This document shows positions 11,657-19,077 of a stretch of 64,000 nt of DNA, piece by piece; the stretch's first letter is position 1, and each line of letters starts with the position of its first letter. Under the pieces are notes generated by a model. The model was given only the letters and a program-made list of their open reading frames with translations. It was not told the origin of the DNA and did no database searches. Source of the DNA: Gemmatimonadota bacterium. Lineage in GTDB: Bacteria > Gemmatimonadota > Gemmatimonadetes > Gemmatimonadales > Gemmatimonadaceae. Made by a program: the position numbers and the translations under genes. The DNA is taken from the NCBI GenBank assembly GCA_014192065.1, contig BJHH01000001.1, forward strand, positions 496,001 to 560,000, read 5' to 3'.

Positions 11657-11665
11657 TCAGCGCGC
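11651..11665 (-). terminator. GC-only hairpin containing the DUF2177 stop codon
   Basis: GCGCGC, a three-base loop TCA, then GCGCGC. On the minus strand the loop is the TGA stop of DUF2177. There is no T tract, so it could be a weak terminator or an mRNA 3'-end stabiliser. Confidence 0.4.
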
Positions 11666-12055
11666 GACGGCGTACCCCACCGAGGAGGCCACGGCGGTCA
11701 GCGCGATGCCCCACGCCAAGTCTACGAGTACGATGATCAGCGGAAAGTCGCGGATCAGCGCGAGGCTGGTCAGGTCGTAGGTGGCGTACGCCGCCAGCCC
11801 GAAGAACGCACCGAGCGCAAGTGCACGCCCAAACGAACGCCGCTCAGCGGCAGGCATGACGACGAACACGACCACCGCAGTCACGTACAGGACGTAGAAG
11901 AGCAGTGCCGGCACCCACTTCACATCGGGGCGGAGCAGGGTGCCCATATGCTTTGCGTAGAAACCCTTGGCCACCACACCGAGCCAGACGAGGTCGAGCG
12001 CGAACATCGTCGCACCCGTCGCGGCGAACGCCTTGAGGAAAGTGATCGTGTTCAT
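11657..12055 (-). CDS. DUF2177 membrane protein
   Basis: 132 residues with four predicted membrane helices. It begins NTITFLKAFAATGATMFALDLVWLGVV and includes ATYDLTSLALIRDFP, which together match DUF2177. The family often lies near photolyase, B12-type MerR or lipid genes, but its biochemistry is unknown. Its ATG overlaps the stop of the SRPBCC gene, making it the third gene of the leftward arm of the MerR-B12 divergon. Regulation by that MerR protein is inferred from this arrangement. Confidence 0.85.
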   Translation of the reverse strand: MNTITFLKAFAATGATMFALDLVWLGVVAKGFYAKHMGTLLRPDVKWVPALLFYVLYVTAVVVFVVMPAAERRSFGRALALGAFFGLAAYATYDLTSLALIRDFPLIIVLVDLAWGIALTAVASSVGYAVAR

Positions 12056-12528
12056 GCGGAACTCCTGGCGGAGCCGAACTGCTCCGCGATGATGGTGGTG
12101 CGATAGTCGAAGATCGCGCGCAGCTGGTGCCGCACGACGAGCCAGTGGATGAGCCTGCCGAGCGGTCCAAAGGGCAGCCGGTACTCCACGTCATCGGTCA
12201 TCTCGACGCCGCCGTCCACGGAGCGAAAGAGATGGCGATGGTACCAGCGCGAATACGGCCCGGTGATCTGCTCGTCGGCAAAGTGCGAGCCGTCGGCATG
12301 CTCGGCGTATTCGGTGATCCGCGATTCCCAGGCCATCGGAATTCCATGGAGGCTCAGCCGATATCGAATCCGGGTGCCCTCGCGAACCGTCTCGTCGCTG
12401 GTGGACGTGATGCGAAATCCTAGCCACGGCGGCGTGATCGTCTCGAGGTTGCGCGGGTTCCTGAAGAACGCGAACACCTCCGGCAGCGTGCCCGGCAGGA
12501 TGGTCGTGCGCGTGAGCCGGTGCGTCAT
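12052..12528 (-). CDS. SRPBCC (START-like) ligand-binding protein
   Basis: 158 residues from ATG 12528 ([13 protein letters not shown]). The sequence follows the polyketide-cyclase/START-like pattern: ILPGTLPEVFAFFRNPRNLETITPPWLGFRI at the N-terminus, then alternating strands and a C-terminal helix (IHWLVVRHQLRAIFDYR). Proteins of this fold enclose hydrophobic ligands such as lipids. It overlaps both neighbours by four bases (MerR upstream, DUF2177 downstream), so it is tightly co-translated. Residues before this ATG lie inside the MerR gene and were excluded. A lipid- or isoprenoid-related role fits the lipid genes in the opposite arm but is not shown. Confidence 0.85.
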   Translation of the reverse strand: MTHRLTRTTILPGTLPEVFAFFRNPRNLETITPPWLGFRITSTSDETVREGTRIRYRLSLHGIPMAWESRITEYAEHADGSHFADEQITGPYSRWYHRHLFRSVDGGVEMTDDVEYRLPFGPLGRLIHWLVVRHQLRAIFDYRTTIIAEQFGSARSSA

Positions 12529-13478
12529 GAGGCCTGCGCCGCGCGCGCGAGTACGCGACGCATGCCGGCGATGCTGTCGCACACGACGATGCCCGGCTGC
12601 TCCAGCGATTTCGTCATCTTGACCGCCAGTGCGCCCCCGGTGAGTACTGGGATCGTAGCCGGCATCGAGGCGCGCACTGCGTGCACTTCGCGAACCACCG
12701 CCGCCGGGTTAGAGCTATGCACGATGCTCAGCGCGACGGCGTCGGCGCGGCTCGTTGCCGCCCCCGCCACGATGTCGGCGGCGGGGACGTCCACGCCCAG
12801 ATAGATGATCGTCCACCCGTCCAGGGCGGCCGCGGTCGCGGCCAGGGCGGCACCGACGGCATGGCGCTCCCCCGCCGGTGTCGCGACGAGCAAGCGCCGT
12901 GCGGCGGGCGTTTCCGGCATCGAACGCAGGGCTTCGAAGATGATGGCCAGGACGGCCGCCGTCGCTAAATGCTCGTGGGCAATCGTCAGCTGCCCGGACC
13001 GCCACTCGTCGCCGATCCGATGCATGAGGGTCGGGACGATCTCCCGAAGAAATGCGGGAATGCCGAACAAAGCGATCGTGCGCCGCAGTTCGCGATCGAG
13101 GCTTGAGCCGTCCAGCGCACGGGTGTGCGCGAGTGCCGCTTCGACGAACTCAGTATGTACGGCTTCATCGGCGTGTGCCGGCGGGGCGGGGCGGTGTGCC
13201 TCATCAGCCGCGACGAGCAGCTCGAGTTCGGCGGTCGGGAGGCTTGCGACCGTCTTGATGCCGCGCCCATGCTTCGTGGCCGCCGCGAGGAGGAGAAAGC
13301 GATCGACCTGGGCGTCAGAATAGAGGCGCTGGCCACCCGGCGTGCGTTCCGGCTCGACCGCCGCGTAGCGCCGCTCCCACGCCCGAAGAACGTCACGCGA
13401 CAGTCCCGTACGCTCAGCGACCACCGCTATTGGGTGGCCGGGGCTTGCCTGGCGTGGTTTTTGTGGCTTGCTTAGCAT
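12525..13478 (-). CDS. MerR-family regulator with B12-binding domain (CarH/LitR-like)
   Basis: 317 residues. Residues 16-85 form a MerR winged helix ([24 protein letters not shown], then [13 protein letters not shown]). The middle helical domain has the signature W-x9-EH (Trp159, Glu169-His170) of CarH photoreceptors, where these residues contact adenosylcobalamin. The C-terminal Rossmann domain has E204-x-H206-x-x-G209, with His206 as the expected lower cobalt ligand. By analogy with CarH/LitR it should bind adenosylcobalamin, repress as an oligomer in the dark and release DNA after light breaks the Co-C bond. An extra TTG start at 13481 is possible. It heads the leftward arm and sits next to interleaved inverted repeats that probably are its operator. 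Confidence 0.9.
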
Positions 13479-13615
13479 CAACTAATAGTAGCAAACTGTC
13501 TAAGCTTTGTCAAGGTATAGACATAGACAAAGCCTTGACAATAGGCCGAAAATTGGTAAATATAAGGGTCCACAGTTCGACAGTTTCACGACACCCAACC
13601 CAAAGGTCACCCAAC
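13479..13615. promoter_or_regulatory. Divergent promoter/operator region of the MerR-B12 divergon
   Basis: Leftward promoter: TTGACA (13513-13508, minus strand), 17-base spacer, TACTAT (13490-13485), only 6 bases before the regulator's ATG. Rightward promoter: TTGACA (13535-13540) with AT-rich -10 candidates at 13557-13566. Two overlapping perfect inverted repeats cover both -35 boxes: GCTTTGTC (13504-13511)/GACAAAGC (13526-13533) and TTGTCAAGG (13507-13515)/CCTTGACAA (13533-13541). This is a plausible CarH-type operator that would repress both arms. Confidence 0.7.
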
Positions 13616-14134
13616 ATGTTCAGCTCGAAGATGGTTGTTCTTTCTCTCGCAGGCCTGATGCTCTCGGCGACGTCTGCCAGCGCACAGGCGGCCGATCACA
13701 GCGCGATGAAGATGGACAAGACGATCGTGGACGTGGCCGTCGAGAACGGCTCGTTCAAAACGCTGGTGACGGCGCTCAAGGCCGCCGACCTGGTCGGAGC
13801 GCTTTCCGGAAAGGGGCCGTTCACGGTGTTCGCCCCGACGGACGCGGCATTCGCGAAGCTCCCGGCCGGCACGATCGACGCGCTCCTCAAGGACCCGAAG
13901 AAGCTGGCCTCGATCCTCACGTACCACGTCGTGTCGGGCAAGGTGATGGCTGCCGATGTGATCAAGGGCAACGGCGCGAAGCCGGCAACGCTGAACGGCG
14001 CCGCGCTCGACATCACGGTGAAGGGTGGCAAGGTGTACGTGAATGGCGCGCAGGTCACGATGGCTGACGTCGTCGGCTCGAACGGCGTCATCCACGTGAT
14101 CGACGCAGTCGTCCTGCCGCCGGCCGCGAAGTAA
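13616..14134 (+). CDS. Secreted fasciclin (FAS1) domain protein
   Basis: 172 residues with a signal peptide (hydrophobic core about 6-18, cleavage near ATSASAQA). A single FAS1 domain (about 35-170) shows the H1 and H2 motifs [15 protein letters not shown] and [15 protein letters not shown] and ends [16 protein letters not shown]1 domains mediate adhesion or ligand binding at cell surfaces. It is the first gene of the rightward arm controlled from the MerR-B12 promoter region, and its stop overlaps the next start (TAATG). Placing a FAS1 protein at the head of a lipid-modification operon is odd. Secreted FAS1 proteins near photooxidative-stress regulators are seen elsewhere, so a stress role is a reasonable guess. 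Confidence 0.92.
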
Positions 14135-14721
14135 TGCTCATCGGTCTGCTGCTCGTGACGGCGCTCGCGAACGACGTACCCGCGGCTGCTCCGGCAGTTG
14201 CCTTTTTATCCGCTCCACGGGGGACGACCGGATCTGTGGGGGATTCCGTTCGCCAGTTTCCGCGTGTGGACGGCTCGAACCTCGAGGGGAAGCGTTTTGC
14301 GCTGCCCGGCGATTTCGAGGCGGAGTACAACGTTGTAGTCGTGGCGTTCCGTCGCGAGCAGCAGGCCGACGTCGACGCCTGGCTCCCCTTTCTGCGCGAG
14401 CAGAAACTGGCGGAGCGAGGCGTCCGGGTGTACGAACTGCCCACGCTCAACCGGTCGTATCGGATGATGCGGGGCTTCATTGATGGCGGCATGTCGCGTG
14501 GCATCCCGGAAAAGGCGACGCGTGAGGCGACCATTACGCTCTACATCGACAAGTCTCCATTCAAGAAGGCGCTGAAGATTGCATCCGAGGACCGCATCGT
14601 CGCGCTGATCGTGGCGCGTGACGGTCGCGTGCTCTGGCGTGAGGATGGTCGGTTCACGCCAGCCGCCGGCGCGGGGCTCGCGGCGGCGCTCGATTCACTC
14701 AAGGTCAGATCGGCGCCATGA
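14134..14721 (+). CDS. Exported thioredoxin-fold-like protein of unknown role
   Basis: 195 residues with a probable short signal peptide (LIGLLLVTALANDVPA). The remainder has the strand-helix order of thioredoxin-like folds: FALPGDFEAEYNVVVVAFRRE, a helix, VRVYELPTLNRSYRMMRGF, and late strands RIVALIVARDGRVLWREDGRF. No CxxC motif is present, so it is not a classical redox thioredoxin; it recalls ATP10-like or peroxiredoxin-like folds lacking redox cysteines. The start codon shares a base with the fasciclin stop, and its own stop overlaps the desaturase start. Its function within the lipid operon is unknown. Confidence 0.7.
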   Translation: MLIGLLLVTALANDVPAAAPAVAFLSAPRGTTGSVGDSVRQFPRVDGSNLEGKRFALPGDFEAEYNVVVVAFRREQQADVDAWLPFLREQKLAERGVRVYELPTLNRSYRMMRGFIDGGMSRGIPEKATREATITLYIDKSPFKKALKIASEDRIVALIVARDGRVLWREDGRFTPAAGAGLAAALDSLKVRSAP

Positions 14722-15704
14722 CCGGCGAACTGGGCGGCGTCTCAGGCCCGATTCGCCACGCCTTGGTGACCGTTCGGCAGTGGTTCGACTCGGACTATTT
14801 CCCCGAGGGCGCTCAGGCGGTGCGCGAGCGACCGGACCGGTTCGAGTTCCGGCGCTGCCTGCCGTTCCTGTTCATCCACCTGGGCTGCATCGGCCTGATC
14901 TGGGCCGGGTGGAGCTGGACCGCCGTCGCCGTGGCCGCTGCGCTCTACTGGGTGCGGATGTTCGCGATCACTGCGTTCTACCACCGCTACTTCTCGCACC
15001 GCACCTTCAGCACGTCGCGTTGGGGGCAGTTTGCGTTCGCGGCGTTGGGTAACACCGCCGTGCAGCGGGGTGCCCTTTGGTGGGCTGCCGTGCACCGCCA
15101 CCACCACAAGCACGCCGACACGGAACACGATGTGCATTCGCCGGGCATGAAGGGTTTCGCCTGGGCGCACATCGGATGGATGACGAGCAGCCGGAACTTT
15201 CCCACTAACTACGACGTGATCCGTGACCTCGCAAAGTTTCCGGAGCTGGTCTTCCTCAATCGCTTCGACCTCGTCGTGCCGGCACTCTATGCCGCGGCCC
15301 TCTACGGTGTCGGCGAACTCCTGCGCGTCGCCGCTCCCGGCCTGGACACTTCGGGTGCGCAACTGGTGGTCTGGGGCTTCTTCGTCAGCACCGTCGTGCT
15401 CCTCCACGGCACGCTCTTCATTAACTCGATGGCGCATGTCTTCGGCGGACGCCGGTTTCACACCCGTGACGACAGTCGCAACAACTTCCTGCTCGCCGTC
15501 ATCACCCTCGGCGAAGGCTGGCACAACAACCACCATCGGTTCATGGGCGCCGCTCGCCAGGGCTTCTATTGGTGGGAGTTCGATCCCACTTGGTATGCGC
15601 TCAAGGCGCTCTCCTGGACGGGGCTGATCTGGGACCTGAAGCCCGTGCCACAGAGTGTGTATGTGGACGCCGAATCGCAGCGTCGGCGCGCCCGCGCCGC
15701 CTGA
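14718..15704 (+). CDS. Membrane fatty-acid desaturase (acyl-lipid/acyl-CoA delta-9 type)
   Basis: 328 residues with the three histidine boxes of the membrane di-iron desaturases: HRYFSH (89-94), HRHHH (126-130) and HNNHH (269-273). Hydrophobic segments flank them (about 50-85 and 185-240). It should insert a cis double bond into acyl chains at the cytoplasmic membrane, using electrons from an unidentified donor. The unsaturated product is the natural substrate for the cyclopropane-synthase-like methyltransferase three genes downstream. The start overlaps the upstream stop (ATGA). Thirty bases separate it from the flavin oxidoreductase gene. Confidence 0.92.
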   Translation: MTGELGGVSGPIRHALVTVRQWFDSDYFPEGAQAVRERPDRFEFRRCLPFLFIHLGCIGLIWAGWSWTAVAVAAALYWVRMFAITAFYHRYFSHRTFSTSRWGQFAFAALGNTAVQRGALWWAAVHRHHHKHADTEHDVHSPGMKGFAWAHIGWMTSSRNFPTNYDVIRDLAKFPELVFLNRFDLVVPALYAAALYGVGELLRVAAPGLDTSGAQLVVWGFFVSTVVLLHGTLFINSMAHVFGGRRFHTRDDSRNNFLLAVITLGEGWHNNHHRFMGAARQGFYWWEFDPTWYALKALSWTGLIWDLKPVPQSVYVDAESQRRRARAA

Positions 15705-15734: not shown

Positions 15735-17009
15735 ATGAAGTCGCTCGCGATCATCGGCACGGGCATTGCCGGCCTCGGCGCCGCCCACTTCCTGCACGAC
15801 CGGTTCGACCTCACGGTCTTCGAGCAGGGCGACTACGCCGGCGGGCACACGAACACGATCACGGTGGACGAGCAGGGACGACCGGTGCCGATCGACACGG
15901 GGTTCATGGTGTTTAACCATGTCACCTACCCAAATCTCACGCGGTTCTTCCGTGAACTGGACGTGGCGACGAAGCCCACCGAGATGTCGTTCAGCGTGCA
16001 GCACGCGCCGAGCGGGCTCGAGTACAACGGCAGCAGCCTGAGTCAGCTCTTCGGGCAGAGGCGCAACCTGCTGAGTCCGCGCCACTGGCGCATGCTGATG
16101 GCCATCAACCGGTTCAACGACGAGGCCGTGCCGGCGCTCGACGACCCGCGCTGGGCCGGCCATTCGCTCGGCGAGTATGTCGCCGAACGCGGCTACGGCG
16201 ACGACATGCTGCTTCGCTACCTCGTGCCGATGAGCGGCTCGGTCTGGAGCGCGACGCCCGATAGGATGCTCGATTTTCCGGCGATGACGGTGCTCCGCTT
16301 CTGGCACAACCACGGCTTCCTCGGTATGCGGACGCAGCATCCGTGGTGGACGGTGGTGAACGGTGCCCAGTCGTACGTCACGAAGATGACCGCGCCATTT
16401 CGGGATCGCATCGAGCTGCGCAACCGCGCGGTACGGGTGGAGCGGCGTGGCGCGCGGGTGCTCGTTACCACCCATCAGGGCGCAATTCGCGGATTCGACA
16501 AGGTGATTCTCGCCTGTCATGCCGACGAGGCGCTCGCGCTGCTCGCCGATCCGACCGACACCGAGCGACGGCTGCTGGCGCCGTTCAAGTATCAGCCCAA
16601 CACGGCGACGCTCCATACCGATCCGTCGTTCATGCCGCGCACGCGCCGCTGCTGGGCGAGCTGGAACTACCGGATCGACCAGTCGGCGGCCGGCAGCGAG
16701 AAGCCGACCATTCACTACTGGATGAACAGCCTGCAGGGCGTGTCTGAGCGCGAGCACTACTTCGTTTCGCTCAACTGCGATGATCGGATCGCTCCGGAGC
16801 GGGTGATCCGGCGGATCGAGTACGCGCATCCCCTGTTCGACCGTGCCGCCGTGGCCGCGCAGGCCGAACTGCCCGCGCTCAACGCCATCGGGCAGGACCA
16901 GACGACGTACTACGCCGGCGCCTGGTTCAAGTACGGATTCCACGAGGACGGATTCACGAGCGGGCTCGACTGCGCGCGCGCGGTCACCGGTGAGGCGATC
17001 TGGTCATGA
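15735..17009 (+). CDS. FAD-dependent amine-oxidase-like oxidoreductase
   Basis: 424 residues. A dinucleotide-binding motif GTGIAG (8-13) within LAIIGTGIAGLGAAHFL, an acidic residue at the end of strand 2 (VFEQ) and GGHTNTI mark an FAD-binding protein of the flavin-containing amine oxidase or desaturase group. Proteins of this type are regularly followed by DUF1365 and CFA-synthase genes, exactly as here. In alphaproteobacterial singlet-oxygen regulons a related flavin enzyme takes part in making modified (furan or cyclopropane) fatty acids. I therefore infer a role in fatty-acyl chain oxidation or desaturation rather than amine oxidation. Its stop overlaps the DUF1365 start. Confidence 0.85.
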   Translation: MKSLAIIGTGIAGLGAAHFLHDRFDLTVFEQGDYAGGHTNTITVDEQGRPVPIDTGFMVFNHVTYPNLTRFFRELDVATKPTEMSFSVQHAPSGLEYNGSSLSQLFGQRRNLLSPRHWRMLMAINRFNDEAVPALDDPRWAGHSLGEYVAERGYGDDMLLRYLVPMSGSVWSATPDRMLDFPAMTVLRFWHNHGFLGMRTQHPWWTVVNGAQSYVTKMTAPFRDRIELRNRAVRVERRGARVLVTTHQGAIRGFDKVILACHADEALALLADPTDTERRLLAPFKYQPNTATLHTDPSFMPRTRRCWASWNYRIDQSAAGSEKPTIHYWMNSLQGVSEREHYFVSLNCDDRIAPERVIRRIEYAHPLFDRAAVAAQAELPALNAIGQDQTTYYAGAWFKYGFHEDGFTSGLDCARAVTGEAIWS

Positions 17010-17809
17010 ACTCCGGCCTGTACGAATGCCGCGTGATGCATCACCGGCTGGCGCCGAAGGTGCACCACTTTCGCTACGGCATCTTCATGTTCGCGCTCGA
17101 CCTCGATGAAATCGACGTGGTTGCCGCGCGCATCCCGTTCTTCAGCCGGAACGCCGCAAACGCCTACGCCTTTCGCGACCGCGACCATCTCACGTTGCCG
17201 GGCCTCGAGTCCGCAGGCATCAAGGCGAACGTTGTGGCCTGGCTCGCGCAGCAGGGCGTCGCCTTCCCGGCGAACGGTCGGATCATGCTCGTGACGCTGC
17301 CGCGCGTGTTCGGCTACGTATTCAACCCGGTGTCGTTCTACTACTGCTTCGACGCGACGGGCGAACCGCTCTGCGCGATCGCCGAGGTGGGGAACACCTT
17401 CGGCGAGATGAAGCCGTACCTCATCAACGCACGCGCGCCGGATGGCGTCTTTCGCCGCCTGACGCCGAAGCAGTTCTACGTGTCGCCGTTCTTCGCGCTG
17501 AATCTCACGTTCGACTTCAGGCTGCGCGTTCCGGATGAACGGCTCGACATCCACATTGATGATCACGACGGCGACGAACGGGTACTGCTCACGTCGCTCA
17601 CCGGCCACCGCGCGCCGCTGACTGCCGCGCGCCTGGCCTGGTTCACTCTGAAGTACCCGATGGTCACGCTCAAGGTGATCAGCCTCATCCACGCGCACGC
17701 CGTGGCGCTCTGGTTCAAGCGTGTGCCGTGGCACCGCAAGTCAGACAACGTCGCCCATCAGCGCGGCGTCCTTAAACCCCACGCGTCGCTCGCAAGGAAA
17801 ACGTCATGA
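17006..17809 (+). CDS. DUF1365 family protein
   Basis: 267 residues opening NSGLYECRVMHHRLAPKVHHFRYGIFMFALDLDEI, the standard DUF1365 start. It also has GRIMLVTLPRVFGYVFNPVSFYYCFD and a hydrophobic segment near the C-terminus. The family has no proven chemistry. Its gene almost always lies between a flavin oxidoreductase and a CFA-synthase-like methyltransferase, as here. Four-base overlaps on both sides show tight coupling. A role in acyl-chain modification is inferred from context only. Confidence 0.92.
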   Translation: MNSGLYECRVMHHRLAPKVHHFRYGIFMFALDLDEIDVVAARIPFFSRNAANAYAFRDRDHLTLPGLESAGIKANVVAWLAQQGVAFPANGRIMLVTLPRVFGYVFNPVSFYYCFDATGEPLCAIAEVGNTFGEMKPYLINARAPDGVFRRLTPKQFYVSPFFALNLTFDFRLRVPDERLDIHIDDHDGDERVLLTSLTGHRAPLTAARLAWFTLKYPMVTLKVISLIHAHAVALWFKRVPWHRKSDNVAHQRGVLKPHASLARKTS

Positions 17810-19077
17810 CCGACAGCACCGCACGATCCGGGATCAACGCCCACACCGGCGGCGCGGCCCACGGCCTCTACGAGCGACTGGTGGTCGCCGCGCTCGGCGA
17901 GATGACGGCCGGGTGCCTGTACCTCGACCTGCCGAACGGCGAAAGGAAAATCATCGGCACCCCGGGCGCCGAGGTCAGCGCGCTGATCCGCGTCCGCGAC
18001 GCCGCGTTCTTTAGAAAGTGCGTTCTGTTCGGCGACGTCGGCTTCGGCGAGAGCTATGTTGACGGCGACTGGGACACGGACAGCATCGAACGCGTGATCG
18101 CGTGGGCCGTGCTGAATGTCGAGCACTCGCCGACGATGTCGGGGTCCAAGGCGAAGCACTTCGCTCTCAACCTGCTCAAATGGTACAACCGCGCTCTCCA
18201 CCGGCTGCGCCCGAACAGCCTGGAGACGAGCCGGCGCAACATCGCGGAGCACTATGACCTCGGCAACGACTTCTATCGTCTCTGGCTCGACAACACGATG
18301 ACCTACTCGAGCGCCTACTTCACCGAGCCGGGGCAGTCGCTCGAGTCGGCGCAGGTCGCCAAGTATGACGCGCTCTGCCGCAAGCTGCAGCTGCGGGCGG
18401 ACGATCAGGTACTGGAGATCGGTAGCGGATGGGGCGGCTTCGCGTCGCACGCGGTGCGCACCTACGGCTGCCGTGTCACCGCCGTCACGATCTCCGAGGC
18501 GCAGTTGGCGTACGCGCGCGAGCGGTTCGCGCGCGAAGGGATCGCCGACCGTGCCGAAGTCCGGCTGGCCGATTACCGCACGCTCACCGGCTTGTATGAC
18601 AAGATCGTGTCGATCGAGATGATGGAGGCGATCGGCGACCGGTACCTCGAAACCTACTTCGCCAAGATCCACGATCTACTCAAGCCCGGCGGCCTCGTGG
18701 CGGTGCAATACATCACGGTTCCCGACTCGCGCCACGCGGAGCTGAAGCGCGGTGTGGACTGGATCCAGAAGCACATCTTCCCCGGATCACTGCTCCTCAG
18801 CGTGGGGCGCGTGAACCAGGCCATCAATCGGACGGGCGACCTCTTCCTGCACGATCTCGAGGACCTTGGCGCCAGCTACGCGAGGACGCTGCACGCTTGG
18901 TGGGAGCGCTTCAATGGCCGCGTCGCCGACGTGCGCGCCCTCGGTTTTGATGCCAGATTCGTTCGCAAGTGGAACTACTACCTCCAGTACTGCGAAGCGG
19001 CGTTCGCCAGCCGGAACATCAGCGTCGTGCAGGCCGTGTACACGCGGCCGAACAACCGCGCGCTGCATCGTGCGTGA
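17806..19077 (+). CDS. Cyclopropane-fatty-acyl-phospholipid synthase-like methyltransferase
   Basis: 423 residues. The C-terminal two thirds carry the CFA-synthase signature: HYDLGNDFYRLWLDNTMTYSSAYF, SAM-binding IGSGWGG (205-211), VTAVTISEAQLAYARERF, SIEMMEAIG and VQYITVPDSR. The N-terminal 120 residues match the small lipid-binding domain of this family. It should transfer a methyl or methylene group from SAM to unsaturated acyl chains in membrane phospholipids. With a desaturase and flavin enzyme in the same operon, the product may be a cyclopropane, methyl-branched or furan fatty acid; sequence alone cannot decide. Its start overlaps DUF1365, and the next gene follows after 10 bases. Confidence 0.92.
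   Translation: MTDSTARSGINAHTGGAAHGLYERLVVAALGEMTAGCLYLDLPNGERKIIGTPGAEVSALIRVRDAAFFRKCVLFGDVGFGESYVDGDWDTDSIERVIAWAVLNVEHSPTMSGSKAKHFALNLLKWYNRALHRLRPNSLETSRRNIAEHYDLGNDFYRLWLDNTMTYSSAYFTEPGQSLESAQVAKYDALCRKLQLRADDQVLEIGSGWGGFASHAVRTYGCRVTAVTISEAQLAYARERFAREGIADRAEVRLADYRTLTGLYDKIVSIEMMEAIGDRYLETYFAKIHDLLKPGGLVAVQYITVPDSRHAELKRGVDWIQKHIFPGSLLLSVGRVNQAINRTGDLFLHDLEDLGASYARTLHAWWERFNGRVADVRALGFDARFVRKWNYYLQYCEAAFASRNISVVQAVYTRPNNRALHRA

Follow-up and report, generated by a model that had tools for sequence, protein, structure and literature searches.

The 137-bp intergenic region between a MerR-type regulator gene and a divergent fasciclin gene (13479–13615 of the window, the 64,000-nucleotide stretch of Gemmatimonadota DNA to which all coordinates refer) contains what is probably a CarH-type operator, at which an AdoCbl-dependent photoreceptor repressor would silence both arms in the dark. 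Four TnnACA half-sites form two tandem pairs, one on each strand and head to head, with spacings of 11, 16, and 11 bp; the inner half-sites start 16 bp apart and the dyad lies at 13518.5. On the minus strand, TTGACA (13508–13513) coincides with the regulator −35 box and TAGACA (13497–13502) lies 11 bp downstream of it. On the plus strand, TTGACA (13535–13540) coincides with the fasciclin −35 box and TAGACA (13524–13529) lies 11 bp upstream. All four are kept in relatives. Both pairs show the arrangement by which a CarH operator is recognized, two or more half-sites at 11-bp spacing over a promoter element; three or more tandem repeats on one strand do not occur at this site, which has only two per strand.

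The sequence-only reading had described two overlapping perfect inverted repeats at this site, and both are exact: GCTTTGTC/GACAAAGC at 13504–13511/13526–13533 (8-base arms) and TTGTCAAGG/CCTTGACAA at 13507–13515/13533–13541 (9-base arms). The TTGACA boxes it placed in both directions are also there (minus, 13513–13508; plus, 13535–13540). When the intergenic region was dinucleotide-shuffled 2000 times and scored for perfect repeats with arms of at least 8 bases and a loop no longer than 20, one such repeat arose in 2.5% of shuffles and two in 0/2000. A single inverted repeat alone would mean little because such repeats are common across the window, where 51 were counted by the same measure versus 33–38 in shuffles. 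Both inverted repeats decompose into 11-bp direct repeats of TnnACA half-sites, which the earlier reading had missed; its two palindromes are a by-product of half-sites that face one another. The half-site scan used on the relatives below, when run as a positive control on the Thermus thermophilus carH promoter, returned its three tandem repeats.

To follow the site among relatives, regulator homologues were drawn from 61 genomes within the window's own genus, family, and order, together with 80 named records, giving 92 non-redundant upstream regions, 51 of them from Gemmatimonadota. The opposed-pair template was found with at most 1 mismatch in 16 at any gap in 31 of the 51 Gemmatimonadota upstreams, as compared to 1 of 5100 shuffled loci, and with a gap of 15 or 16 bp in 26 of the 51, as compared to none of the shuffles. 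About half of the Gemmatimonadota upstreams thus lack the 15/16-bp layout at this threshold, which counts against the operator reading. The 16 template bases are conserved in the 26 relatives by the very selection of that set; non-template bases are conserved as well, with G at position 29 in 26/26, T at position 28 in 25/26, and C and A at positions 3 and 4 in 24/26 each, while positions flanking the site carry ~0.1 bit. These counts ignore kinship, and the argument from conservation rests on the flanks and spacers that are not conserved. The exact arms of each inverted repeat are intact in only 3/26 relatives, and the idea that these repeats are the functional unit was dropped. The expectation that the repeats recur beside orthologous regulators is therefore borne out for the half-site layout and not for the palindromes. 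What the sequences conserve is the 11-bp TnnACA direct repeat, which occurs twice on each strand in a head-to-head layout.

A fifth half-site, TCGACA (13577–13582, plus strand), lies at +42 from the start of the fasciclin −35 box and had also escaped the sequence-only reading; an accessory TnnACA at +42 or +43 is present in 17/26 relatives. Some relatives have a second exact 11-bp pair near fasciclin. In the window the corresponding candidates, TCCACA at 13569 and TCGACA at 13577, are 8 bp apart, and only the +42 half-site fits.

These data also bear on the alternative that there is no operator here and that two back-to-back promoters sharing TTGACA boxes make chance palindromes. The 9-base palindrome does consist mostly of the two opposed −35 boxes. 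In each pair, however, the other half-site is no promoter element and is nonetheless conserved, and the 11-bp and 15/16-bp spacings are fixed. We regard this explanation as extremely improbable.

Outside Gemmatimonadota, none of the relatives examined has the 15/16-bp opposed pairs at up to one mismatch; most have one pair or tandem triples of half-sites. In Acidobacteria, Verrucomicrobia-type, and Deltaproteobacteria-labelled records (L060, L120, L122, and L096; one of them with the Deltaproteobacteria label), a divergent MerR-B12/fasciclin pair is accompanied by differently arranged half-sites. Methylococcales loci (e.g., L072, L074, L098, and L104) encode CarH-like regulators with a single tandem half-site pair, located near the regulator promoter and on the other strand from the regulator gene.

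The geometry of the two promoters was compared across the 26 relatives by fixing the −35 boxes and averaging the −10 score over the relatives at each spacer length. The mean score peaks at 17 bp both for the regulator (−0.08) and for the opposing arm (0.70), with every other spacer at −2.49 or below. In the window, the regulator −10 box TACTAT (13485–13490, minus strand) lies 17 bp from its −35 box, a geometry shared by relatives. The fasciclin −10 is uncertain (candidates within 13558–13566, plus strand): AAATAT (13558–13563) has the 17-bp spacer preferred in relatives and is a weak match, a point against the operator reading, and TATAAG (13561–13566) has a spacer of 20 bp. Since the regulator start codon is only 6 nt past its −10 (window 13476–13490; usually 5–8 nt, and 2–10 nt in most relatives), the regulator mRNA is probably leaderless, and the close spacing is conserved.

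Normal 17-bp spacers fit a repressor. In the classical MerR mode, a dimer on a palindrome would instead activate by untwisting an over-long spacer, and the dyad symmetry about 13518.5 is in line with such a dimer, as is the observation that TATAAG with its 20-bp spacer outscores the 17-bp −10 in this genome alone. However, both promoters prefer 17-bp spacers across the 26 relatives, the palindrome arms are not conserved, and the dyad falls between the two −35 boxes rather than between a −35 and a −10, so that the palindrome inside a 19–20-bp spacer expected of a classical MerR activator was not found. Activation of this kind is very unlikely here.

By its sequence motifs, the regulator (12525–13478, minus strand, ATG at 13478) carries the signatures of AdoCbl-dependent CarH photoreceptors. 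Its Pfam domains are MerR_1, B12-binding_2, and B12-binding, the combination of MerR winged helix and B12-binding domain expected of CarH, and its best PDB matches are T. thermophilus CarH structures 3whp and 5c8d (E about 1e-26). The motifs Wx9EH and ExHx2G-x41-SxV/T-x22-27-GG are said to define CarH homologues (PMC8156234); the first is present as W159 and E169-H170, and the second as E204, H206, G209, S251, V253, and G281-G282 (ExHx2G-x41-SxV-x27-GG). The GxxW, EH, GxxH, and GxxxP motifs (PMC11796333) are likewise all present. The NCBIfam CarH equivalog is the best family match at 127.9 bits, below its cut-off of 400, which counts against the CarH reading, and we therefore call the regulator CarH-type rather than a strict equivalog of the modelled CarH. 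A PduO-type adenosyltransferase, which forms AdoCbl, is encoded in the genome.

The regulator has Arg where T. thermophilus CarH has its light-state ligand, His132. This substitution counts against the main reading and lends some support to a variant in which the regulator represses at this site but answers to a partner photoreceptor (cf. PmlR2/LOV) or to B12 status rather than to light itself. There is precedent in class II LitR, which represses ufaM-type genes via an inverted TGTACA-N12-TGTACA and responds through a LOV protein (PMC9758184). On the other hand, the regulator has all the motifs for direct AdoCbl light sensing, and no LOV gene is seen beside it at this locus. CtMerR, which also has Arg at the His132 position, is light-responsive, its B12 domain still passing from tetramer to monomer on illumination (PMC11796333). 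We consider a partner photoreceptor or a B12-status trigger unlikely.

The fasciclin-domain protein (13616–14134, plus strand; PF02469, E 2e-39) is the first gene of the divergent arm. Many Gemmatimonadota relatives, along with some from Acidobacteria and Verrucomicrobia, likewise have fasciclin divergent from the regulator. A 195-aa protein (14134–14721, plus strand) begins at the fasciclin stop codon, adjoins fasciclin in close relatives, and has no Pfam or NCBIfam match. It is followed on the same strand by a fatty-acid desaturase (14718–15704; PF00487, with an NCBIfam DesA-family match under its cut-off), a UfaD-like FAD oxidoreductase (15735–17009; Pfam Amino_oxidase, role by analogy with PMC7380195), a UfaO-like protein (17006–17809; PF07103, E 3e-77), and a UfaM/Cfa-like fatty-acid methyltransferase (17806–19077; Pfam CMAS, E 5e-84). 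UfaO contains DUF1365 (PMC7380195), as does its counterpart here; UfaD and UfaM were assigned from domain content and the order of the genes. In three further loci (L065, L071, and L092), the regulator is next to desaturase/UfaD genes. By analogy, the divergent arm, a putative operon, would comprise membrane-protection genes: fasciclin and a UfaD-UfaO-UfaM-like furan-fatty-acid set, with relatives among the photo-oxidative-stress genes of Rhodobacter. Downstream of the regulator, on the minus strand, are an SRPBCC-family protein (12052–12582, start within 12546–12582; PF03364), kept in relatives, and a DUF2177 membrane protein (11657–12055; PF09945), kept in close relatives.

A genome scan with the four-site template gave no other match below 3 mismatches, so regulation looks local. 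One match with 3 mismatches was found (C2:230058), and exact triple tandems of half-sites are absent genome-wide. A wider regulon was considered and set aside: a carotenoid-type synthase is encoded elsewhere in the genome, and it is not near any matched site.

In the mechanism we propose for the CarH-type operator, an AdoCbl-bound oligomer would in the dark hold the two head-to-head pairs of 11-bp half-sites, and the fifth half-site near the fasciclin start would help to hold it. Each −35 box doubles as a half-site, so the bound oligomer would deny RNA polymerase access to both promoters, with autorepression and silencing of the fasciclin/furan-fatty-acid genes as the outcome. On illumination, cleavage of the cobalt-carbon bond would make the oligomer fall apart and free both arms. 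The earlier suggestion of a light- or B12-responsive operator is partly supported, with a CarH signature in the regulator, a site conserved beside orthologues, and both −35 boxes covered, but the inverted repeats on which it was built are not what relatives conserve.

On its tandem operator, T. thermophilus CarH leaves one of its four DNA-binding domains unused. A conserved operator of opposed pairs suggests a different, possibly symmetric, seating of the CarH family on DNA. It also suggests a naturally occurring light switch that is compact and acts in two directions. We tentatively suggest, as a nearly balanced possibility, that head-to-head half-site pairs let a single oligomer bind through all four of its DNA-binding domains and close both divergent promoters together, that this arrangement is widespread in Gemmatimonadota, and that it puts fasciclin and furan-fatty-acid synthesis under a B12 photoreceptor. 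The prediction is that a B12 light sensor would govern in Gemmatimonadota the fasciclin and furan fatty acids that a singlet-oxygen sigma factor governs in Rhodobacter. In the open literature searched, which included few subscription papers, CarH operators are described as tandem repeats and no head-to-head layout was found; CarH is nowhere mentioned together with fasciclin, and no report of CarH regulation in Gemmatimonadota was found. The novelty of the head-to-head layout is accordingly provisional.

Known CarH operators consist of 11-bp direct repeats, nnnnTnnACAn, overlapping −35 or −10, and the CarA site of Myxococcus xanthus was likewise taken for palindromes at first and has since been read as direct repeats (PMC9304148). 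The T. thermophilus operator, in the carH/phytoene synthase divergon of plasmid pTT27, resembles the present site in its 11-bp TnnACA repeats, one of which is a TTGACA −35 box, in the placement of the regulator in a divergon, and in a start codon few bases past the −10. Its half-sites occupy all three positions (−35, 11 bp upstream, and 11 bp downstream) as three tandem repeats on one strand next to carotenoid genes, whereas here two opposed pairs stand head to head beside fasciclin/furan-fatty-acid genes. Myxococcal CarH/CarA operators (Cystobacter and M. xanthus) share TnnACA repeats overlapping −35 but have four to five of them in tandem at a single promoter of carotenoid genes. Class II LitR (Pseudomonas PplR1/PmlR2) is also a MerR-B12-like repressor whose inverted TGTACA motif lies over −35 and whose light-inducible targets include ufaM (PMC9758184); it differs in having single inverted half-sites, 18 bp start-to-start, and a light signal that arrives via a LOV partner. 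In Rhodobacter sphaeroides, photo-oxidative stress brings a rise in fasciclin RSP1409, RSP1090/1091, and CfaS (PMC7074977); RSP1090/1091 are UfaO/UfaD, and CfaS/UfaM is likewise responsive to this stress (PMC7380195). The singlet-oxygen regulon of RpoE-ChrR has fasciclin, UfaO/UfaD, and CfaS/UfaM genes in common with the divergent arm, but it is controlled by a sigma/anti-sigma pair, whereas a CarH-type repressor adjoins the genes here.
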